A DNA stretch of 64,000 nucleotides from Verrucomicrobiales bacterium (GTDB taxonomy: Bacteria > Verrucomicrobiota > Verrucomicrobiia > Verrucomicrobiales > DEV007), in the NCBI GenBank assembly GCA_016795505.1, contig JAEUHH010000059.1, positions 1 through 64,000 on the forward strand, read 5' to 3'. Each line of letters opens with the position of its first letter. The first letter of the stretch is position 1. Below, in pieces: positions 2-38,061 of this stretch. Below the pieces are notes generated by a model that searched no databases, was not told the DNA's origin, and worked only from the letters and a program-made list of their open reading frames with translations. A program made the translations under genes and the position numbers.

Positions 2-814
2 CCCTTGCTGCTGTCCTCGCTCCACGCCGGGACGATTCCCGGCATCGAATTCGCCAAGGTGGACGGCCTTTCCCTGAAACTCGATCTCCATCGTCCCGAT
101 GCGGAAAAGCCGCCGCTCGTCGTCTACGTGCATGGCGGCGCGTGGCGGGCGGGCTCGCGCGACGACGTGCCGGTGCTCGGCTTGCTCGACCACGGCTTCG
201 CCATCGCCAGCGTGGACTACCGGCTCAGCCCGCAGGCACGGTTTCCGGCGCAGATCCACGACATCAAGGCGGCGATCCGTTTTCTCCGCGCCAAAGCGGA
301 GGAATTGAAGATCGACACGACCCGCATCGCCATCATCGGTTCCTCGGCGGGCGGTCATCTCGCCGCCCTCACCGGCGTCACGAACGGCCACGAGGAACTC
401 GAGGGACGGGTCGGCGATCACCTCGACCAGAGCAGCCGCATCGATGCCATCGTCAGCTTTTACGGCGCCTCGAACCTGCAAAGCATCCTCGGGCAAAGCA
501 CCGAATTCGGTCTCGGTGTGCGCGTTCCCGCCTTGAAGCTGTTGCTCGGTGATGTGCCTGACAAACAACCCATCCTCGCGAAACTCGCCAGCCCCGTGGC
601 CCATCTCGACGCCAAGGACCCGCCGCTGCTGCTGATCCACGGCGACGCCGACCCGCAAATGCCGCCCGCGCAGTCGGAAGAATTCCGCGAGGCCTGCGAG
701 AAGGCGGGTGTACCCGTCGAACTCGTCACTCTCCCCGGCGCCAAGCACGGCGGTGCCGAATTTTACGATGAAGCGCGCCTCCAAGCAGTCGCGGACTTCC
801 TGCAAAGAAAGTAG
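2..814 (+). CDS. Exported alpha/beta hydrolase (esterase), 5'-partial
   Basis: The protein is an esterase of the BD-FAE/alpha-beta hydrolase type whose 5' end is cut by the window edge. The frame is open from base 2, and the first possible initiator (TTG at 5) lies in what looks like the tail of a signal peptide (LLLSSLHAG), so the true start is upstream and export is likely. Counting from base 5, the oxyanion-hole motif HGGAW is near residue 43, the nucleophile elbow GSSAGG has Ser near 114, HGDADPQ gives an Asp near 216 and AKHGG a His near 248, so the Ser-Asp-His triad is complete. Relatives cleave acetyl or feruloyl esters on polysaccharides, but the substrate cannot be read here. The stop codon TAG belongs to the palindromic element that begins at 808. 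Confidence 0.85.
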   Translation, partial: PLLLSSLHAGTIPGIEFAKVDGLSLKLDLHRPDAEKPPLVVYVHGGAWRAGSRDDVPVLGLLDHGFAIASVDYRLSPQARFPAQIHDIKAAIRFLRAKAEELKIDTTRIAIIGSSAGGHLAALTGVTNGHEELEGRVGDHLDQSSRIDAIVSFYGASNLQSILGQSTEFGLGVRVPALKLLLGDVPDKQPILAKLASPVAHLDAKDPPLLLIHGDADPQMPPAQSEEFREACEKAGVPVELVTLPGAKHGGAEFYDEARLQAVADFLQRK

Positions 815-1961: not shown

Positions 1962-2507
1962 ATGCCCCTCGACCACGAAACCATCCTGAGACACCTCTTC
2001 GAGGCGCGCCCGCGGCTCAGCGGGGCGGCATGGCTGATCGTGCGCGACGCAGCGTCGGCGGAAGACCTCTTCCAGAACGTGGCGCTGAAGTCGGTGACGA
2101 AAAACGTCTCTTTCGAGCACGAGGGTGCGCTGCTCTCGTGGGCGATGATCTCGATCAAGCGCGAGGCGATCGACTGGCTGCGCAAGCGCAGGCCGGAGAC
2201 GCTCGGCCTGGAGCCGGAGGTGCTCGATCTGATCAGCGGGGAATGGTCGGCCCATCCGCAGCCCGAGGGACGCCGCATGGAGGCGCTGCGAGAATGCCTC
2301 GCTTCGGTCCCGGAGCGATCACGGCAACTCCTGCACCTGCGTTATTTCGAAGGCCACTCCTGCGACGAGGTGGCGGAACGGGTCGGCGCCAAGGTCGACG
2401 CGGTTTACCAGAGGCTCTCGCGCCTGCACCGGCAATTGCGGCAGTGCGTCGATGAGCGCCTCCAACAAAGTGGTTTGGGCTTCAGCCCAAGCTCGGATTT
2501 GGGCTGA
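1962..2507 (+). CDS. ECF-type RNA polymerase sigma factor
   Basis: This 181-residue protein is a small sigma-70 family factor with only regions 2 and 4. Region 2 is about residues 12-75 (ARPRLSGAAWLIVRD, then AEDLFQNVALKSV, then SIKREAIDWLRKRR). Region 4 is a helix-turn-helix at about 120-165 (LLHLRYFEGHSCDEVAERVGAKVDAVYQRLSRLH). Its partner is the FecR-like membrane protein just downstream, the usual anti-sigma arrangement in this phylum. The last residues (QQSGLGFSPSSDLG) and the stop codon are encoded by a PE1 element, so the native C terminus has been replaced or extended. The ATG at 1962 follows the kinase stop by about 40 bases, which allows co-transcription. Confidence 0.85.
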   Translation: MPLDHETILRHLFEARPRLSGAAWLIVRDAASAEDLFQNVALKSVTKNVSFEHEGALLSWAMISIKREAIDWLRKRRPETLGLEPEVLDLISGEWSAHPQPEGRRMEALRECLASVPERSRQLLHLRYFEGHSCDEVAERVGAKVDAVYQRLSRLHRQLRQCVDERLQQSGLGFSPSSDLG

Positions 2508-2521
2508 AGCCAAGCGACTTT
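2467..2521. repeat. PE1 palindromic element, full copy at the sigma/FecR junction
   Basis: AAAGTGG plus TTGGGCTTCAGCCCAA is followed by a TTGGGCTGAAGCCAA half and GCGACTTT. It encodes the tail and stop of the sigma factor and then fills the spacer to the FecR start codon. Confidence 0.88.
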
Positions 2522-2529
2522 TGATTTCC

Positions 2530-3792
2530 ATGAACGACGATCTCCTCACGCAACGCTACCTCGATGGCGCGCTCTCCGACGGTGAGCTGGCCACCTTCCA
2601 GCAGCGTCTCCGCGAGGACGCGGAGCTGCGCGAGCATCTGCGCGCGATCGCAGAACAAGCGGTGGCTTTCGGCGATCTGGCTCGGAGCCAGACCATCGCT
2701 CCGGCTGCACCGCCCATCCGGAGCGGGCGAGCTTCGTGGTTGGCATTGGCGGCCTCCCTGGCGGTACTGGCGGCGAGCGCGGCGCTTTTTCTTTACAACC
2801 GGCAGCCCACGGTCCTAACACTCGTCGAAAACACTGGCACGGTGACCTGGAGCGACGGTTCACCCATCGCCCCACAGGACCGCCTGCCCGCCGGCACGAT
2901 CGCGACGGTGGGAGAGACGAGTTCGGCCCAGTTCCGCTTCGGCGATGGCACGCTCATCACCCTGCACGGGGAGACCGAGCTGACCTTCTCGGAGGACGGG
3001 CGGAAAATCCTCGCCCTTTCCCGTGGTGCGCTTTCCGCGGAGGTGAAACCGCAGCCCGCCGGTCGTCCCATGCTCGTCCGCACGCCCAGCGCGGAGGCCG
3101 AGGTCGTGGGCACAGCCTTCGATCTCACCGCGCGGCCCGAGGACACCGTCTTGAAGGTCAACGAAGGTCTTGTGAAACTGAAGCGCCTCGCGGACGGCAG
3201 CGAGATCGACGTGTCGGCCAACCGCAGCGCCGTTGCCTCGCTCGACGCGGGTAGCGCCCTCGATGCGGCCTCCACGCCTGAGCCGCTCACGGACTGGAGC
3301 TTCGATTTCACCACGACCACGCCGCCGCGAGATTGGCGTGGTTTCGCCAAGGACGGCGCCATGCACGCGAGCCCCTACGTGGCGAAGAAGCAGGATGACG
3401 GCCGGGTCACCACGCACTACGGCGTTTCCGTCCGCACCGCGCTGCTGGAAGAGCCGCTGCGCCTGCTCGCGACCGGGTCCAGCGTGATCCGTTACCGGCT
3501 ACGACAGGTGGAACCGGGATCGCTCCAGTTCATGCTCCTCACCCACCGTGCGGAAGGAGGCTTCGGCGGCAACTTCGAATGCAAGATCGGAGCGGAGGAA
3601 TTGCAGCCCGATGCCGACGGCTGGTGCGAGATCGCCATTCCGATCACCCGCTTCGAGCCGATCGATTCGCGCGTCTACCTGCGAAAACGACACCCGACCG
3701 CGGCGGGCAATGTCATCACCTCGGCCATCGTCAGCAGCTACCGCGAGGACCGGAAGCTCACCGTCTGCCGATTCGAACTGATCGGAAAGTAG
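2530..3792 (+). CDS. FecR-domain membrane protein, probable anti-sigma regulator
   Basis: This 421-residue protein has a cytoplasmic N-terminal helical region (1-60), one membrane helix (about 69-89, WLALAASLAVLAASAALFLY) and a periplasmic FecR domain (about 120-210; IATVGETSSAQFRFGDGT, LSRGALSAEV, VVGTAFDL). It probably senses an envelope signal and controls the sigma factor encoded upstream. I place the start at ATG 2530 (MNDDLLTQRYLDG). The frame extends upstream to 2452, but that extension only translates the PE1 element. The C-terminal 200 residues resemble a carbohydrate-binding beta domain but are not recognised with confidence. The last codon and the TAG stop come from a PE1 half element. 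Confidence 0.82.
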   Translation: MNDDLLTQRYLDGALSDGELATFQQRLREDAELREHLRAIAEQAVAFGDLARSQTIAPAAPPIRSGRASWLALAASLAVLAASAALFLYNRQPTVLTLVENTGTVTWSDGSPIAPQDRLPAGTIATVGETSSAQFRFGDGTLITLHGETELTFSEDGRKILALSRGALSAEVKPQPAGRPMLVRTPSAEAEVVGTAFDLTARPEDTVLKVNEGLVKLKRLADGSEIDVSANRSAVASLDAGSALDAASTPEPLTDWSFDFTTTTPPRDWRGFAKDGAMHASPYVAKKQDDGRVTTHYGVSVRTALLEEPLRLLATGSSVIRYRLRQVEPGSLQFMLLTHRAEGGFGGNFECKIGAEELQPDADGWCEIAIPITRFEPIDSRVYLRKRHPTAAGNVITSAIVSSYREDRKLTVCRFELIGK

Positions 3793-3810
3793 TTTGGGCT
3801 TCAGCCCAAG
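3786..3810. repeat. PE1 half element donating the FecR stop codon
   Basis: AAAGTAG and TTGGGCTTCAGCCCAA are present but no right half follows. The final Lys and TAG of the FecR gene lie in AAAGTAG, exactly as at 808-814. Confidence 0.82.
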
Positions 3811-3833: not shown

Positions 3834-6734
3834 ATGAACCTGCGTCCGCGCACCGTTGCTCTTCTCGTGCTCGTGCTCGGCTCGTTGCCATTGGCCGCGG
3901 AGGTGCCTCAGGCCTTTGAAAGCTATTGTTTCCAATGCCACGATGCCACCCGGACGGAGGGCGAGCTGGATCTCGAGGATTTCGTTTTCCAAACCATCGG
4001 CGCGGAGCAGGTCGTCACGCTGGAGGAAATCCTCCTGCGTCTCGAGGAAGGCGACATGCCGCCGAAGAAGGCGCGCAAACAGCCGACTCCCGCCGAGCGT
4101 GAGGAGATGATGGCCTGGGCGCGTGGTCAGATCGACACTCTCGCCGAGTCTTCGATGGACGATCCCGGCCGGGTCGTCATTTCGCGTCTGAACCGGGGCG
4201 AATACCGCCGCGTCATCCGAGATCTCAGCGGCGGTCTGGTCACGGGCGCCGGCGAGTATCTGCCGAACGAAGGCGGAGCGGGCGAGGGCTTCTCCAACGT
4301 CGGCGAGGCCCAGGGGATGAGTGTGGCGCAGTTCGAAAAGTATCTCGAAGCCGCGAAGGGCGCCCTCAAACATCTGCGCGTGTCGCCGCACGATGGCCTC
4401 GTCTGGAGCGCGACACCGCACGAGCCGGTCGAGACCACCGCCGCCCAAATCCAGGAGGCCGTGGATGACCTCATCGCCTGGCACGTCGGCCAGCAGCAGA
4501 AGTGGGGCGAGCAACATCGCCAGGCGTTGGCGGCGCGGTTCGGCTCCGCGCATGCCGTGTATCTCGCGGCAGCGAAAAAAAGTAGCTTGGGCTTCAGCCC
4601 AACTCTCGAAGACCTTGGGCTGAAGCCCAATCACCTTTCCCCTGTCCCCCTCGAAAAATGGCAGGGTATTCTCGCCAACGAAGCCGCGGACTCCCCCTTC
4701 GCCGATTGGGCGAAGGCCTGGCGCGCCCTGCCCAAGGACCTCGACGAAAAAGCCTTGCTCGCCGCCTGCCAAGCCATCGTCCAGGGTGGCGCAAAGCCAC
4801 CGGAATCCGAAGACTACGCGCCCCCCTACGAGATCAGTTTTCACGAGGCCCGTGAGGAGGTGCTCGAAGCCGCGACGAAGGAAGGCCACTGGCCGTTCCG
4901 CATCGACATCGGCGAGGCGAAGGAGCTCTTCCTCGTCGTCACCGACGCCGGCGATGGTGGTCGCGGCGAATACGCGGTGTGGCGGAAAGGACGCGTTGTT
5001 TTCCAAGATGGCAGCGCCAAACCCTGGCAGGAGGCCGTGCAGGTCGTCGGCGCGAACAGCGGCAAGCCCTTCGCCTGGGGTGTCGATGGTGAAGGGTCGA
5101 AAACGCTCGGTCCCGATGCCATCGGGGTGCGGCCTCCCGGCGCGCTGAAATTCGCCGTGCCGGAAAACGCGATCGTCTTCGAGGTCGATCTCGCGCTCGA
5201 TTCCAACCGAACCAAGCTCGCCAGCATTCAGGCGCTCGTGCTGAAGGAAAAGCCGAAGTCACAGAGCTACATCCCCGGCCGCTACATCTTCGGCGGAAAA
5301 AAACGCGACAACGAGGCCGCCTCCGAAACGAACAAGGAACGCGATCGACTGCTGCGGAAGCGCAATGTCTCCGAGGCGAATCTCACCAAGGTCGGCCTGA
5401 ACGCAGAGCGGAATCTCTTCGCCGCGTGGACGCGCACCCCGCTGGAGGCCATCGGCGGCCCCTGGCCGGATCAGGTCGAGGAGAAAACGGAACCCGACGC
5501 ACCCTATCACTACACCGTCGCCGAGGTGCGGCGCAACGCCACACCCGAAGACCTCGCCGAGCTGGCCTTGCGCGAAGACCGGCTCGTCGCCCTGACGCAA
5601 ACCTTGCCATCGGAGTGGCAATTCGCCGACAACTTCGTCCGCCTCGCCTGGCGGCGCGAGGTGAGCTCGGATGAACGGGAACTCCTCGCCCGTCTTTACC
5701 GCGAGGCCGCCCAACCGGGCGTGAGCTACGACAGCGCGATGAAGGTGCCGCTGCTCGCCGTGCTGATGTCGCCGGAGTTTTTGTATAAAGTAGCCTGGGC
5801 TTCAGCCCAATCCGACTCTGACATTGGGCTAAAGCCCAAACCACTTTCTTCGCGCCTCTCCTTCTTCCTCTGGGCGAGCCTGCCCGACGACGAACTCCTT
5901 GCCGCCGATCTCACGCAGCCCGACGTGCTCGAAGCCCAAACGCGGCGCATGCTCCGCGATCCCCGTGCTTCGGCCCTCGCGGAGGTCTTCGCGGCGCAGG
6001 TGTGGCAGTTCGAGGACTTCGAGCACTTCACCGGTCCTGACGAAACGCGCTTTCCCGAATTCACCGCGGAGCGGCGGCGCGAGATGCTCGACGAGGTCCA
6101 CACCGCGCTGAACCGCGTCTTTCTTGGGGATGCGCCCCTGTCGCTCCTCCTCGACGAGGACTGCCTCGCCACGAAGCCGCTCTTTCTCACCAAGACCTCG
6201 CTGCCCCTGCGCACCTCTCCCGTGCAGCGCGGCGCCTGGGTCGTCGAGACGCTGCTGGGACGCCGCATCCCGCCACCGCCGCCGAACGTGCCGCAGCTCT
6301 CCGAGGACGACAAAAGCGCCGCCGGTCTCAACATCCGTGAGCAGCTCGCCAAGCATCGTGCCGACGCGAACTGCGCCGCCTGTCATGCCCGGATCGATCC
6401 ACCCGGCATCGCGTTGGAAAATTTCGACCCCATCGGCCGCTGGCGGGATACCGAGCGCGACGGCTCGCCCATCGTGAATCACGAGACCCTCTCCGACGGC
6501 ACCGAGCTCGCCGGCGTGGACGGCCTCAAGACCTGGCTCCTTTCGCGCGAGGACGAATTCCGCGCCAATCTCCACCGCAAGCTCCTCGGCTACGCCCTCG
6601 GCCGCGCCGTGCTGCCGGGCGACCGCAAGCTGCTGGAACGCATGGCCCGGCACGGGAAATTTTCCGATGTCGTCGTCGAGATCGTGACGAGTCCGCAGTT
6701 TTTGCAAAGGGGTTCGAGCTTCGGCTCGAAGTGA
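3834..6734 (+). CDS. DUF1592-type secreted multidomain c-type cytochrome
   Basis: This 966-residue protein belongs to the planctomycete/verrucomicrobial DUF1587-DUF1595-DUF1592-DUF1588-DUF1585 family. Seen in order: a Sec signal peptide (1-22), an N-terminal haem motif CFQCHD near 30, a DUF1587 stretch RLNRGEYRRVIRDL near 123, DUF1592 (RLSFFLWASLPDDELL near 674), DUF1588 with a second haem motif CAACHARIDPPGIALENF, and DUF1585 (LLGYALGRAVLPGD). The family's biochemical role is unproven; it is inferred to act in periplasmic electron transfer linked to polymer breakdown. Two PE1 elements are inserted in frame at about residues 249-268 and 652-671. A degenerate half element appears to supply the C-terminal tail after SPQFLQ, the conserved family end. 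I chose ATG 3834 because upstream sequence is FecR in another frame. Its usual DUF1552 partner is not adjacent but 6.9 kb downstream. Confidence 0.88.
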   Translation: MNLRPRTVALLVLVLGSLPLAAEVPQAFESYCFQCHDATRTEGELDLEDFVFQTIGAEQVVTLEEILLRLEEGDMPPKKARKQPTPAEREEMMAWARGQIDTLAESSMDDPGRVVISRLNRGEYRRVIRDLSGGLVTGAGEYLPNEGGAGEGFSNVGEAQGMSVAQFEKYLEAAKGALKHLRVSPHDGLVWSATPHEPVETTAAQIQEAVDDLIAWHVGQQQKWGEQHRQALAARFGSAHAVYLAAAKKSSLGFSPTLEDLGLKPNHLSPVPLEKWQGILANEAADSPFADWAKAWRALPKDLDEKALLAACQAIVQGGAKPPESEDYAPPYEISFHEAREEVLEAATKEGHWPFRIDIGEAKELFLVVTDAGDGGRGEYAVWRKGRVVFQDGSAKPWQEAVQVVGANSGKPFAWGVDGEGSKTLGPDAIGVRPPGALKFAVPENAIVFEVDLALDSNRTKLASIQALVLKEKPKSQSYIPGRYIFGGKKRDNEAASETNKERDRLLRKRNVSEANLTKVGLNAERNLFAAWTRTPLEAIGGPWPDQVEEKTEPDAPYHYTVAEVRRNATPEDLAELALREDRLVALTQTLPSEWQFADNFVRLAWRREVSSDERELLARLYREAAQPGVSYDSAMKVPLLAVLMSPEFLYKVAWASAQSDSDIGLKPKPLSSRLSFFLWASLPDDELLAADLTQPDVLEAQTRRMLRDPRASALAEVFAAQVWQFEDFEHFTGPDETRFPEFTAERRREMLDEVHTALNRVFLGDAPLSLLLDEDCLATKPLFLTKTSLPLRTSPVQRGAWVVETLLGRRIPPPPPNVPQLSEDDKSAAGLNIREQLAKHRADANCAACHARIDPPGIALENFDPIGRWRDTERDGSPIVNHETLSDGTELAGVDGLKTWLLSREDEFRANLHRKLLGYALGRAVLPGDRKLLERMARHGKFSDVVVEIVTSPQFLQRGSSFGSK
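4579..4638. repeat. PE1 palindromic element, full copy inside the DUF1592 gene (site 1)
   Basis: AAAGTAG and TTGGGCTTCAGCCCAA form the left half; TTGGGCTGAAGCCCAA and TCACCTTT form the right half. It is translated in frame as SSLGFSPTLEDLGLKPNHLS between unrelated family sequence. Confidence 0.92.
5787..5847. repeat. PE1 palindromic element, full copy inside the DUF1592 gene (site 2)
   Basis: AAAGTAG and CTGGGCTTCAGCCCAA form the left half; TTGGGCTAAAGCCCAA and ACCACTTT form the right half. It is read as KVAWASAQ...IGLKPKPLS. The left half uses a different reading frame from the copy at 4579, so the element tolerates more than one frame. It lies directly between the conserved SPEFLYK and RLSFFLW motifs of DUF1592. 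Confidence 0.92.
6706..6727. repeat. Possible diverged PE1 half element at the DUF1592 3' end
   Basis: AAAGGGG is followed by the perfect hairpin TTCGAGCTTCGGCTCGAA. The layout matches a PE1 left half (AAAGTGG plus hairpin), but both stem arms are changed in a matching way. It encodes the tail RGSSFGSK and abuts the stop of the DUF1592 gene. Membership in PE1 is inferred from layout only. Confidence 0.5.
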
Positions 6735-11118: not shown

Positions 11119-11212
11119 ACACCGTTTCGATTCAACCCTCTTGGATCGATGACCAAACAGGGTTGGAACGTGAAGCGCACGGTTTGCCATCACGCCATTA
11201 ACAGAACAAATC

Positions 11213-11247: not shown

Positions 11248-11790
11248 ATGCAGCCCATGCGCCAGGTCGCAGACACCCTCCGCTCCCTCGCGGACCGGGA
11301 GCACTGTGTCTTTGCGGCGTCCGATCTGGCCGGGGCGGTGCCGGGGTGCGGGCAGTTGGCGGTGCTGCTTTCGCGGGCGGCGAAGGGCGGGCTGCTGCGG
11401 CGGGTGTGCAAGGGCATCTATTTTTACCCGGTGGCGGACTATCCAGCGGGGAACCTGCTCTTTCATGCGGCGGCGCGGTTGCGGGCGGATGCGTTCAACT
11501 ACCTGAGCCTGGAGACGGTGCTGAGCGAGGCGGGCGTGATTTCGCAGGTCCCCATGAACTGGATCAGCCTGATGTCCTCGGGTCGCAGTCATGTGGTGGA
11601 CTGCGGGGACTACGGGCACATCGAGTTCGTGCACACGGCGCAGCGGCCGGACGAGGTGGCGGGCGAGCTGGTCTATGATCCCGACCGGCATCTGTGGCGG
11701 GCCTCGGTGCGGCAGGCGATGCGGGACATGAAGGCGACTCGACGGAGCCTGGAACTCGTGAACGAGGAGGTGCTGCATGGGCTTGTTTGA
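11248..11790 (+). CDS. Type IV toxin-antitoxin system AbiEi-family antitoxin
   Basis: This 180-residue protein has an N-terminal winged-helix region (about 1-60; FAASDLAGAVPGCGQLAVLLSRAAKGGLLRRVCKGIYFY) and a C-terminal domain (about 70-175), the layout of AbiEi antitoxins. AbiEi represses its own operon and neutralises the nucleotidyltransferase AbiEii without stable contact. The assignment rests on the wing motif GLLRRVCKGIY and on the adjacent AbiEii gene, which it overlaps by 14 bases. The upstream inverted repeat at 11213 fits an operator. Such pairs act in phage abortive infection or element maintenance, consistent with the accessory block it lies in. Confidence 0.82.
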   Translation: MQPMRQVADTLRSLADREHCVFAASDLAGAVPGCGQLAVLLSRAAKGGLLRRVCKGIYFYPVADYPAGNLLFHAAARLRADAFNYLSLETVLSEAGVISQVPMNWISLMSSGRSHVVDCGDYGHIEFVHTAQRPDEVAGELVYDPDRHLWRASVRQAMRDMKATRRSLELVNEEVLHGLV

Positions 11791-12640
11791 CCAATTGGTG
11801 GACGAGGCGCTGCGCTCGCGGGCCGATCTCGCGATCCTGCGGCCCGTGGTGGAGAAGGAGTTGCTGCATCACGACATCCTGCGCGAAATGAGCGGCGCGG
11901 GTTTGCTCGCGGGTCTAACCTTCATCGGCGGAACCTGTCTGCGGGCGTGCTATGGCTCGCAGCAGCTCAGCGAGGATCTGGACTTCACTGGCGGCAGCGA
12001 TTTCGAGAAGAGCGACCTCGCCACTCTGGCTGGTGTGCTGACCGAGCGACTGCACGAGCGCTACGACCTGCCGGTGACCGTGAGCGAACCGGTGAAGACC
12101 GGAGGCAAAGTCTCGACTTGGAAGCTCATGATCGAGACACGCCCCGGCCAGCGCCATCTGCCCGCGCAACGCATTCATCTCGACATCTGCGCCATCCCCA
12201 GCCATGACCCGAGGCCGATGATGCTGCGCAACCTCTACGGCATCGACCTCGGCACGTCCGGTCTCATCCTCCAGGCACAGAGCCGCGAGGAAATCCTGGC
12301 CGACAAAGTGATCGCGCTCGCCTTCCGCGAGAACCGCCTGAAAAACCGCGATCTGTGGGACATTGCCTGGCTGGTGCAGCAGGGCATCGCGCTGCCCGCA
12401 GCGCTCATCCCGCTCAAGATCGCCGACCATCAGCGCACGAACTCCGAGTTCAAAAGCCAACTGCAATCCCGCCTCGCCAGCCTCAAGACGGATCCGTCGA
12501 TGCGCGATGACTGCCTGAAGGAAATGCAGCGCTTCCTGCCCGCCGCGGTCGTTCGTGACACGCTGACCCAACCGGCATGGTGGAGCTATCTCACCTCGGT
12601 GCTCGATGACCAGGCTCGACTGGCGCTGGCGACGCTGTGA
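11777..12640 (+). CDS. AbiEii/AbiGii-type nucleotidyltransferase toxin
   Basis: This 287-residue toxin has a polymerase-beta-like nucleotidyltransferase core. The motif GGTCLRACYGSQQLSEDLDF (about residues 51-70) carries the G-G-T and D-x-D type signature of AbiEii; further family features are the basic EEILADKVIALAFREN stretch near 172 and KNRDLWDIAWLV near 192. Relatives add nucleotides to tRNA or other acceptors and stop growth. The length and all visible motifs look complete, so it is probably active. It is translated from the end of the antitoxin gene (14-base overlap). Confidence 0.85.
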   Translation: MGLFDQLVDEALRSRADLAILRPVVEKELLHHDILREMSGAGLLAGLTFIGGTCLRACYGSQQLSEDLDFTGGSDFEKSDLATLAGVLTERLHERYDLPVTVSEPVKTGGKVSTWKLMIETRPGQRHLPAQRIHLDICAIPSHDPRPMMLRNLYGIDLGTSGLILQAQSREEILADKVIALAFRENRLKNRDLWDIAWLVQQGIALPAALIPLKIADHQRTNSEFKSQLQSRLASLKTDPSMRDDCLKEMQRFLPAAVVRDTLTQPAWWSYLTSVLDDQARLALATL

Positions 12641-13595: not shown

Positions 13596-14984
13596 ATGAA
13601 ACCTTCGACCCCAGTTCCGGCCACGATTGGGCTGAAGCCCAAACTACTTTCCTCCCGCCGCGCCTTTCTGCGTGGAGCGGGAGCGACGCTGGCCTTGCCC
13701 TGGTTCGAGTCGCTCGCGGCCCAGGCCGAGGCGAAAGCGCCCGTCCGCTACGGCTGTCTGCTCTTTGCCAATGGCGTGAACCCTCACGAATGGAATGCCA
13801 GCGGTGAAGGCGCGGGCATGACGCTCTCGAGCACCCTGCAACCGCTTGCAGGTCTCAAGCAGCACCTCACCGTGTTGAAAGACCTGCACGTCTTCAACAA
13901 CACCAGCGGACCGCACTGGCCGCTCTTCTCGAACTACCTCAGCGGCGCGCAGTTCAAGGAAACGCTCATCCCCGAGGGCGGCGAATCGCTCGATCAGGTC
14001 ATCGCCCGCCACACCGGTCGTGAGACGACCGTCCAGAGTCTCGTCCTCGCCGTCGAACCCGCGGAGAGCGGACTGCGCGGCGGAGTGCCGGCGGTGTATT
14101 ACTCCACCATTTCGTGGTCGTCGAAGAACACCCCCATCGCCCCGGAGGTGTATCCGCGCGCCGTCTTCGACCGGCTCTTCGACACGAGCGGCCTGCTGCG
14201 CGACAAGAGCGTGCTCGATGCCGTACTCGCCCAGTCGAAAGACATGCGCCGCCAGCTCGGTGGCATGGACCAGCAGAAGCTCGACGAGTTCATGCACAGC
14301 GTCCGCGATCTGGAGCAACGCATCGAGCGGGCCGCGAAGGAGGAGCGGCTGGAGGGCCAGAAAAGTGGTTTGGGCTTTAGCCCAACGCTGAACGGAGTCA
14401 CCTTTGATCCCCGCGATCCCGCCGGTCGGGCTGAAGCCCGAGCCACTTTGCAGCATCAGGACGTGCGCGAACACATGCGGATGATGTGTGATCTCCTCGT
14501 CCTCGCCTGGCAGATGGACAAAACCCGGGTCGCCACGCTCCTCTTCAACCGCGACGTCTCGCACATGAAGTTCGGCTTCCTCGACGGCGTGCTCAACGAC
14601 CAGCTCCACGGCATCTCGCACCACAAGGAAGACGCGGACAAGCTCGCCAGCTACGCCCGCATCAACCGCTTCCACGTCGAGCAGCTCGCCTACGTGATGG
14701 AGCAGATGCGGGCGATCGACGAGGGCGGCGGCACCACGATGCTGGACAACGTCATCCTCCAGTTCGGCAGCAACATGTTCAACGGAGACAGCCACGACGG
14801 CCGGAACCTGCCCATGATCCTCGCCGGTCACGGCGGCGGCAGCATTGCCGGAGGACGTGTCCTCGACACTGGCCCGAAGTCCGAGGAGCAACAGCGCGCC
14901 TGCAATCTCTACCTCGCCATCGCGCAACGGATGGGAGTGAAACTCGACCGCTTCGGCGACAGTGTCGAGGCGATGGAGGTGTAA
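13596..14984 (+). CDS. DUF1552 Tat-exported protein
   Basis: This 462-residue protein carries a twin-arginine signal (SSRRAFLRGAGATLALPWFESLAAQ, about residues 19-43) and the DUF1552 fold (LLFANGVNPHEWNASGEG; HLTVLKDLHVFNN; TTMLDNVILQFGSNMFNGDSHDGRNLPMILAGHGGG). DUF1552 proteins are alkaline-phosphatase-superfamily-like and almost always pair with DUF1592 cytochromes; their substrate is not known. Two PE1 copies lie in the gene: a half element in the Tat n-region, and a full variant at about residues 256-284. The paralogue at 17567 has only nine residues before RRTFLRGAG, which shows that the extra n-region here is insertion. Its expected DUF1592 partner upstream is displaced by the 6.7-13.5 kb block. 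Confidence 0.86.
   Translation: MKPSTPVPATIGLKPKLLSSRRAFLRGAGATLALPWFESLAAQAEAKAPVRYGCLLFANGVNPHEWNASGEGAGMTLSSTLQPLAGLKQHLTVLKDLHVFNNTSGPHWPLFSNYLSGAQFKETLIPEGGESLDQVIARHTGRETTVQSLVLAVEPAESGLRGGVPAVYYSTISWSSKNTPIAPEVYPRAVFDRLFDTSGLLRDKSVLDAVLAQSKDMRRQLGGMDQQKLDEFMHSVRDLEQRIERAAKEERLEGQKSGLGFSPTLNGVTFDPRDPAGRAEARATLQHQDVREHMRMMCDLLVLAWQMDKTRVATLLFNRDVSHMKFGFLDGVLNDQLHGISHHKEDADKLASYARINRFHVEQLAYVMEQMRAIDEGGGTTMLDNVILQFGSNMFNGDSHDGRNLPMILAGHGGGSIAGGRVLDTGPKSEEQQRACNLYLAIAQRMGVKLDRFGDSVEAMEV
13627..13650. repeat. PE1 half element in the Tat signal n-region of DUF1552
   Basis: TTGGGCTGAAGCCCAA plus ACTACTTT is the right half of PE1, read as IGLKPKLLS directly before the twin-arginine motif. Confidence 0.88.
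14363..14449. repeat. PE1 palindromic element, long variant copy inside DUF1552
   Basis: AAAGTGG and TTGGGCTTTAGCCCAA form the left half; a longer linker of about 39 bases follows; the right half is TCGGGCTGAAGCCCGA plus GCCACTTT. The right hairpin has T-to-C and A-to-G changes on opposite arms, so pairing is kept. It is read in frame as KSGLGFSPTLN...RAEARATL. Confidence 0.9.
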
Positions 14985-29476: not shown

Positions 29477-30424
29477 ATGAACCTACGCCTCTGCCTCGCC
29501 GTCTTCCTCCTGCCCGCTTGGGCGGAAGCCCAAACCACCTTGCTCAATCTCTGGCCCGGCACGCCGCCCGGTCCGGCCGCGTTGGTCGAAGGCGCGGAGC
29601 GCGATCTGACGAAAGCGGAGGACAAACTCATCGCGGGACGTCCCATCATCAAACTCGGCCATGTCAGCACGCCGCAGATACACGTGTCTCTGCCGCCGAA
29701 GGACAAAGCGAACGGCGGCGCGGTGCTCATCTGTCCCGGCGGCGGCTTTTCCATCCTCGCCTGGGACCTCGAAGGCACCGAGGTGGCCGAATGGCTGAAC
29801 TCGATTGGTTTTGCCGCCGTCGTCGTGAAATACCGCGTGCCGACGCGCGAGCACGGCGATGCTTTGAATGATTCCGGCACCGCGCCGCTGAAGGCCGTCG
29901 GCCCGGTGATGGACGCACAGCGGGCCATCAGCCTGACGCGGGCGCATGCGGCCGAATGGGGCATCGATCCCGATCGCGTCGGCATCCTGGGTTTTTCCGC
30001 CGGCGGGGAAACCGCGGGGCTCACCACCCTGCTCGGCGGGCAGCGGCTCTATCCGGCGCTGTCACCGGATGAACCCTCTTGTGCCCCCGACTTCACCCTG
30101 TTGATCTATCCCGGCGGTTTTTACGACAAGGAGAGCGGCGGCTTGAAATCGCATCTCAAGGTGACGAAAGACACGCCGCCCATGTTCTTCGTCATGGCGC
30201 AGGACGATCACGTGAATCCACTCAACTGCACCGTGCTCTACACCGCGCTGACGAAGGAAAAGGTGCCGGCCGAGCTGCATCTATTCCCTCGGGGCGGTCA
30301 TGGCTACGGGCTGCGGCCGACTTCTGAACCGGTGACGCTTTGGCCCAAGGCCGCGGAGGTCTGGCTGAAAAGCCTGGCCGCTCCCGATCCCGCTCTTTCC
30401 CAACCCAAACCTGTCCGTCCATGA
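29477..30424 (+). CDS. Exported alpha/beta hydrolase (BD-FAE/axe-type esterase)
   Basis: This 315-residue protein begins with LLNLWPGTPPGP after the signal peptide, the entry motif of acetyl-xylan-esterase-like hydrolases. The oxyanion-hole motif is ICPGGGFSILA, the nucleophile elbow is GFSAGGE with Ser near 175, QDDHVNP gives the Asp and RGGHGYG the His. It probably removes acyl groups from polysaccharide. The signal-peptide end AWAEAQ is encoded by a PE1 half element. The stop overlaps the start of the next gene (ATGA). Confidence 0.84.
   Translation: MNLRLCLAVFLLPAWAEAQTTLLNLWPGTPPGPAALVEGAERDLTKAEDKLIAGRPIIKLGHVSTPQIHVSLPPKDKANGGAVLICPGGGFSILAWDLEGTEVAEWLNSIGFAAVVVKYRVPTREHGDALNDSGTAPLKAVGPVMDAQRAISLTRAHAAEWGIDPDRVGILGFSAGGETAGLTTLLGGQRLYPALSPDEPSCAPDFTLLIYPGGFYDKESGGLKSHLKVTKDTPPMFFVMAQDDHVNPLNCTVLYTALTKEKVPAELHLFPRGGHGYGLRPTSEPVTLWPKAAEVWLKSLAAPDPALSQPKPVRP
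29518..29541. repeat. PE1 half element in a signal peptide
   Basis: TTGGGCGGAAGCCCAA plus ACCACCTT differs from the standard right half at two positions only. It encodes AWAEAQTT, the predicted signal-peptidase region of the esterase. Confidence 0.72.
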
Positions 30425-37350: not shown

Positions 37351-37707
37351 ATGCACCCCGTCCTGTCCGCCATCGGCCTGCTCTGTCTGAGCAATATCTT
37401 CATGACCTTCGCCTGGTACGCCCACCTCAAGGAGATGGGCCACAAGCCCTGGCTGGTCGCCGCCCTGATCAGTTGGGGCATCGCCCTGTTCGAATACCTG
37501 CTCCAGGTGCCGGCAAACCGCATCGGCTACACCGTCATGAGCGTCGGGCAGCTGAAAATCCTCCAGGAAGTCATCACCCTGTCGGTGTTCGTGCCCTTTG
37601 CCGTGTTTTACCTCAAGGAACCGCTGAAACTCGACTACCTCTGGGCCGCCCTCTGCGTCTGCGGGGCGGTCTACTTCGTGTTTCGCGGCCAGATGGGGGC
37701 GGGCTGA
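37351..37707 (+). CDS. DUF486 (DMT-like) small membrane protein
   Basis: This 118-residue protein has four hydrophobic helices and the family pattern NIFMTFAWYAHLK, SWGIALFEYLLQVPANRIG and QLKILQEVITLSVFVPFAVFYL. DUF486 proteins are single-domain relatives of drug/metabolite transporters; their substrate is unknown. It stands alone, divergent from the DUF1549 gene and followed by the tandem repeat array. Confidence 0.86.
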   Translation: MHPVLSAIGLLCLSNIFMTFAWYAHLKEMGHKPWLVAALISWGIALFEYLLQVPANRIGYTVMSVGQLKILQEVITLSVFVPFAVFYLKEPLKLDYLWAALCVCGAVYFVFRGQMGAG

Positions 37708-37722
37708 CGTGGCCGCCGACCG

Positions 37723-37985
37723 AAATGCAGCCTCGTCGGAGGCGTGCCGGAGCCTCCTGATCGGCGTTGCGGTCACGACGGAGGCGTGCCGGAGCCTCCG
37801 GCACGGCGTTGCGGTCACGACGGAGGCGTGCCGGAGCCTCCGGCACGGCGTTGCAGGCACGACGGAGGCACGCCGGAGCCTCCGGCACGGCGTTGCGGTC
37901 ACGACGGAGGCATGCCGGAGCCTCCGCCACGGCGTTGCGGTCACGACGGAGACGATCGGGAGCACCCGGCACGCCGTTGCAGGCA
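37723..37985. repeat. 42-bp tandem repeat array, about six units
   Basis: The unit runs GGCGTTGCGGTCACGACGG then AGGCGTGCCGGAGCCTCCGGCAC, with period 42. Inner units are nearly identical; the first and last are diverged. GCCGGAGCCTCCGGC is itself a short hairpin in each unit. The units abut with no unique spacer. The period is a multiple of three, so all frames stay open as 14-residue repeats; I do not regard these as genes. Confidence 0.85.
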
Positions 37986-37990
37986 CCGCT

Positions 37991-38061
37991 TTTCGATCAA
38001 ACAGGGTCTGATCTCCGATCAAACAGGGTCTCATCGGCGATCCAACCCGGTCTGATCGGAA
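37991..38061. repeat. PE2 palindromic element, triple copy
   Basis: Three units (CGATCAAACAGGGTCTGATC, CCGATCAAACAGGGTCTCAT, CGATCCAACCCGGTCTGATC) follow one another directly after the 42-bp array and upstream of the DUF1549 gene at 38140. It is the longest PE2 copy in the window. Confidence 0.82.

Follow-up and report, generated by a model that had tools for sequence, protein, structure and literature searches.

The closest described relatives of the elements analysed here are the GTAG REPs. In-frame copies of these within genes are known in Opitutus terrae, a verrucomicrobium (Di Nocera et al. 2013, PMC3733652), two Xanthomonas species have been described with different REPs at nearly the same recB position, and the TAG of a REP head has been reported to serve as the stop codon of a gene for other REPs (PMC3733652). 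In the REPINs and BIMEs of Pseudomonas and E. coli, two REPs form an inverted pair, the dimer moves as a unit and the RAYT gene lies between the same REPs (PMC3116915, PMC2817692, PMC8266576). A further group, the Rickettsia palindromic elements (RPE), is described in PMC3733652 as palindromes kept in frame in protein genes and read as peptides; RPE-4 and RPE-6 are assigned there to the CGTC group, with no dedicated transposase.

The work presented here concerns a 64,000 nt stretch of DNA from a Verrucomicrobiales bacterium, referred to as the window, in which a palindromic element, PE1, is found twice in a single gene. PE1 has in common with the GTAG REPs of PMC3733652 the GTAG/GTGG head, a perfect 6–9 bp stem, a TY loop, the occurrence as dimers, in-frame copies in genes, the use of the head as a stop codon and the association with a RAYT, a match which is one of described features and not of consensus sequences. 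Like the REPINs and BIMEs, it forms inverted REP pairs and is found, in a related genome, on both sides of a RAYT gene. As with the RPEs, PE1 copies are in-frame palindromes in protein genes and are read as peptides, but its GTAG head and a RAYT flanked by the same family set it apart from them on the class description given in PMC3733652. In contrast to the REPs of that study, three families occupy two sites of one gene here, together with a probable remnant of an overwritten copy.

Results

The host gene and its two elements

The gene which carries both copies (the host gene) and the parts of its elements are as follows, in window positions:

3834–6734, + strand: host gene, encoding a PSCyt1-DUF1587-DUF1595-DUF1592-DUF1588-DUF1585 protein of 966 aa (Pfam domains, orthologues, purifying selection)
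4579–4602, + strand: site 1, left REP arm of family A, AAAGTAGCTTGGGCTTCAGCCCAA, read SSLGFSP (arm pattern match)
4603–4614, + strand: site 1, spacer between the arms, 11/14 identical to G223
4615–4638, − strand: site 1, right REP arm with a degenerate head, AAAGGTGATTGGGCTTCAGCCCAA (arm alignment)
5787–5810, + strand: site 2, left REP arm of family A, AAAGTAGCCTGGGCTTCAGCCCAA, read KVAWASAQ (arm pattern match)
5811–5823, + strand: site 2, spacer, 3/13 identical to G213
5824–5847, − strand: site 2, right REP arm, AAAGTGGTTTGGGCTTTAGCCCAA, in the DUF1595/DUF1592 linker (arms and Pfam)

The ATG at 3834 is preferred as the start of the host gene; a start at 3579, which would give a longer mechanical ORF, is not likely. 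Orthologues are present in 11 other genomes and comparison with that of G223 reveals purifying selection (dN 0.15, dS 0.99). An AlphaFold2 model of the protein, built from a 3-row alignment, reached a pLDDT of 33 and was left out of the analysis.

A sequence-only reading of the window had placed two copies of the element in this cytochrome-like gene, at 4579 and 5787, and had observed that their left halves are read in different forward frames. Both observations hold: the two inverted-repeat elements (4579–4638 and 5787–5847) are in frame, and the left arm is read as SSLGFSP in copy 1 and as VAWASAQ in copy 2. The codons of copy 1 (tat ctc gcg gca gcg aaa aaa AGT AGC TTG GGC TTC AGC CCA ...) yield YLAAAKK-SSLGFSP-TLED-LGLKPN and those of copy 2 (ttt ttg tat AAA GTA GCC TGG GCT TCA GCC CAA ...) yield FLYK-VAWASAQ-SDSDI-GLKPKP. 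The right arms, which the earlier reading did not mention, share one frame and give GLKP in both copies. That of copy 1 is without a GTRG head (AAAGGTGA, 3 mismatches to the consensus). Both REP dimers are found in one gene, where they would be read in frame as part of the predicted protein.

The suggestion that copy 2 splits conserved DUF1592 motifs proved to be wrong. Pfam places DUF1595 (PSD5) at aa 597–653 and DUF1592 (PSD4) at aa 667–777 of the host protein, and copy 2 encodes approximately aa 652–671, that is, the linker between the two domains. This linker varies in both length and sequence among the orthologues, including those free of elements.

PE1 as a family of GTAG REPs

PE1 is a dimer of a GTAG-type REP, with two hairpins whose GTRG heads point outward. 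The arm of this family, which we call family A, is AAAGTRGYTTGGGCTTYAGCCCAA and occurs in inverted pairs. Nearly all arms carry AAAGTRGY followed by TTGGGCT-TY-AGCCCAA, a GTAG/GTRG tetranucleotide directly 5′ of a perfect hairpin, as in GTAG-type REPs, whose hairpins measure 20–40 nt. With up to 3 mismatches allowed, the arm pattern matches the window 16 times, whereas 100 shuffles yielded no match; a control with reversed sequence is invalid for inverted repeats, since reversal keeps them, and was left out. Family-A copies of the window outside the host gene are:

808–870, no strand assigned: dimer after ORF 5–814, whose stop is the TAG of the REP head
1452–1514, no strand assigned: in-frame dimer within the SBD_N sugar-binding gene 881–1921, behind the SBD_N domain
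2467–2490, + strand: single REP at the 3′ end of the ECF sigma factor gene, where relatives carry family F
3786–3809, + strand: single REP whose TAG ends the FecR gene 2452–3792
13627–13650, − strand: single REP at the start of the DUF1552 gene
14362–14449, no strand assigned: dimer in frame in the DUF1552 gene, where seven relatives have 44 native nt
29518–29541, − strand: degenerate single REP

In the genome of 6.5 Mb, about 40 arms (~41) are distributed over 13 contigs, many of them in a few gene clusters (window 1–15 kb and contigs C25, C67 and C68), and no family-A arm was found in three genomes of the same genus. This is a modest copy number: REPINs and BIMEs are often present in more than 100 copies and are mostly extragenic, whereas many of the PE1 arms are in genes. 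Most copies are inverted REP pairs with the GTRG heads outward and spacers of 12–46 nt. Several lie inside conserved genes of the acquired gene set described below, and the family is not mainly extragenic as REPs generally are; an extragenic location is nevertheless a typical and not a defining feature of REPs, and intragenic exceptions belong to the published family. Some copies within the genome share their spacers (for example those at 1666 and 3962 of locus L081), which would point to the movement of whole dimers, but most do not. The dimers often replace variable native sequence rather than simply adding length. The sequence preceding the element showed no target motif other than AAA, which is itself part of the element, and a weak purine bias before it.

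Other repeats were also observed. A different family, based on TCCGATCAAACAGGGT, is present at window positions 11124, 18839, 28362, 37990, 52109 and 63073, and a tandem array with a 42-nt unit occupies 37684–38019. Two adjacent ORFs at 11248–12640 resemble, by eye, an AbiEi/AbiEii toxin-antitoxin pair. Gene clusters of Verrucomicrobiaceae carry a palindromic dimer family, AACCACAGAGACACAGAGCACACAGAG (L174, 8030–8100 and 16122–16201; L177, 55–144).

Stop codons and reading frames

From the two frames read within one gene, the sequence-only reading had suggested that an element free of stops in several frames is adapted to harmless insertion into genes, and had proposed a comparison of its stops with those of shuffled sequence. 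A single arm has 4 of its 6 frames open, compared to means of 4.06 in dinucleotide shuffles, 4.13 in mononucleotide shuffles and 3.93 for random stems in which the palindrome is kept. Together, 13 whole dimers have 34 open frames where 31.7 are expected. Moreover, there is a stop codon in the head: one forward frame is closed by the TAG within the conserved GTAG, as one frame of the mirrored arm is by TGA/TAA, and the ORFs 5–814 and 2452–3792 both terminate at the TAG of a REP head (window 805–814 and 3786–3792). By the comparison which that reading had itself proposed, a special adaptation to stop-free frames is refuted, and we consider it extremely improbable; what stands of the proposed nature of the element is a repeated palindrome that lies inside a coding gene and whose copies are read in at least two frames. 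The in-gene copies are survivors in which the frame was kept and the closed frames were missed, and which frame is read is accidental, since random entry followed by selection for an open gene accounts for the different frames of surviving copies.

The sigma factor ORF (1962–2507) extends across a REP to give the tail SGLGFSP.

The RAYT of family A

A RAYT ORF flanked by family-A dimers is present in G149, a related Verrucomicrobiaceae genome (locus L211, ORF 2106–1384 on the − strand, dimers at 1323/1446 and 2081/2135). Loci L132 and L159 likewise include a RAYT gene with family-A dimers on both sides. The arrangement in G149 and in L132/L159 is that of a REPtron, a Y1 transposase flanked by the same REP family. 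In the genome to which the window belongs, none of the 17 Y1_Tnp matches is a RAYT located beside family A, the best being 44% identical to the RAYT of family A. Further RAYT genes of the same genus each lie between REPs of their own family (L200, L205, L209, L210 and L213).

Lateral origin of the gene set

The host gene shares 77% identity with the orthologue of G223 (family f4, genus g24 in our labelling) and 54% with that of G002, which belongs to the same genus as the window. The pattern is reversed for proteins encoded at 43–45 and 58–62 kb of this contig, which have 76–86% identity to the same genus and 53–67% to g24. These opposing patterns suggest that the gene set bearing the elements was most likely acquired laterally, from Verrucomicrobiaceae-like donors. 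Misbinning of the whole contig was considered as the source of the lateral signal and rejected, two proteins (43–45 and 58–62 kb) being closest to the same genus; an assembly chimera is an unlikely source.

Gene order in the acquired set is shuffled between genomes and several break points are located at REPs. On contig C25 (L081, 1663–11300), two family-A REPs enclose a segment of 9.5 kb, and in MAG-13 (L160, 94% identical) the flanks of this segment are joined directly at the REP.

Different REP families at the same two sites

Orthologues of the host gene were aligned, the window's own genome being labelled G000. Some genomes appear under two labels for the same record (G223/CALMTT, G149/JABTUN, G175/D8_MAG_00034 and G213/W1111) and each pair was counted once. 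Site 1 is occupied by family A in G000 and G223, by an A-like single REP in G149 and by a second family, C (GTGRNACAGACACTCTTGTCTGT), in G015, G175 and G167. Site 2 carries family A in G000 and G213, family B (GTAGAACGAGTTTTCCAACTCGTT) in G223 and G149 and family C in G015 and G137, while G175 and G167 have a short tandem repeat there. No REP was found at the sites covered in G165, G209, G157 (in which the gene is split over two contigs) and G002. B and C are dispersed low-copy dimers in g24 genomes, and in G015 family C is found only in the host gene, as a passenger. Both linkers are reused docks for unrelated REP families.

Other sites are also used repeatedly. The loop of the DUF1552 gene carries family A in G000 and in L161, with a shared spacer, and again in G175 and G167, with other boundaries; seven others carry the 44 native nt. 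At the sigma/FecR junction, the window has family A and three relatives have family F. A DUF1592-type paralogue on contig C68 of the same genome (L083, 211–3015) includes two A dimers, one just before DUF1595, and one A dimer of this paralogue occupies a position that L129 and L133 use as well. In general, A dimers at the same site have arms which are 79–100% identical, and most of their spacers are unrelated.

Such reuse might simply reflect tolerance: few places accept 15–25 extra residues, and random independent insertions, with neither targeting nor exchange, would be seen only there. The position of site 2 between two Pfam domains and its variability in element-free orthologues agree with this, as do the 8 orthologues with elements, all of which keep the reading frame open, and the DUF1552 loop and a site designated Y in gene 2, which hold REPs in several lineages with differing boundaries. 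However, the probability that at least six entries fall by chance on 2 positions is P = 3e-3 for 10 and 5e-6 for 50 tolerant positions, where the count of six presumes no allele transfer by recombination. In addition, the complete element heads of all three families lie within approximately 1 nt of the conserved edge. Tolerance alone also leaves unexplained the near-total loss of A where B entered G223, and we regard it as quite possible without being probable.

At site 2 of G223, B is directly followed by GCTACTTTC, nine bases from the end of an A arm, after which the sequence agrees with that of G000. This is the one clear case of what appears to be B written over an older A. In the gene tree, in which two forks are weakly supported, G213 (A) and G223 (B) group as sisters with support 99/99 and G149 (B) is placed apart; with this arrangement, the B state at site 2 changes at least twice.

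Homologous recombination between orthologues could also have moved the differing elements, so that one old entry would look like several. The host gene is itself most likely laterally transferred, and in G213 the sequence to the left of site 2 is similar to that of G175, which makes mosaicism likely. Recombination nevertheless moves existing alleles and gives no account of how A, B and C first reached the same position, and both the spacers and the right junctions of B are unlike between G223 and G149. We regard it as an unlikely source of the pattern.

A third explanation is exchange in place, in which a RAYT would cut a resident dimer and join another REP family, making in-gene REP positions heritable docks at which families turn over. 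Recognition of GTAG is common to RAYTs, and their cuts fall in the vicinity of REPs. In vitro, TnpAREP enzymes cleave at CT beside REPs and join the strands, and GTAG guides the choice of the cleavage site (PMC8266576); exchange, a step that we infer, is on this basis mechanistically possible. It would agree with the A remnant beside B in G223, the two or more changes of B on the tree, the occurrence of A versus C at both host-gene sites in two clades and that of A versus F at the sigma/FecR junction. The remnant is however also compatible with loss of A and a later, separate entry of B, and the RAYTs assayed so far act on their own REPs; as an explanation in its own right, exchange in place seems somewhat doubtful.

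Discussion

The reading that we prefer, and consider highly probable, is that PE1 is a GTAG REP dimer moved by a RAYT, located in a laterally gained gene, kept in tolerant linkers and inserted at sites which are reused. PE1 would be mobile but passive, depending on the RAYT, an HUH, Y1 transposase, to move it as single-stranded DNA. The host gene would have arrived laterally from Verrucomicrobiaceae-like donors with its REPs already aboard, or might have gained them afterwards, and its two copies would persist because the linkers tolerate extra residues and the frame is kept. The element family, its dimer form, the RAYT gene between the same dimers in a relative and the in-frame retention under purifying selection are supported by observation, as are the reuse of both sites by other REP families, one probably overwritten element and a most likely lateral origin. 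The reuse of sites is likely to result from tolerated linkers combined with a target or exchange preference of RAYTs: in addition to tolerance, we infer that targeting by RAYTs, or the exchange of one REP for another, directs different families to these two linkers.

REPs in genes and the same-site case of recB are already published. The new part is comparative and consists of the reuse of sites and the remnant; in the open-licence papers searched, we found no precedent for two sites in one gene reused by three REP families, with a remnant.

These data illustrate how mobile hairpins rewrite protein linkers while the gene is not lost. For the choice of sites by REPs and their RAYT-driven spread, the host gene offers a defined natural test of targeting or exchange. 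A candidate for in-vitro work can also be named, the RAYT of family A.
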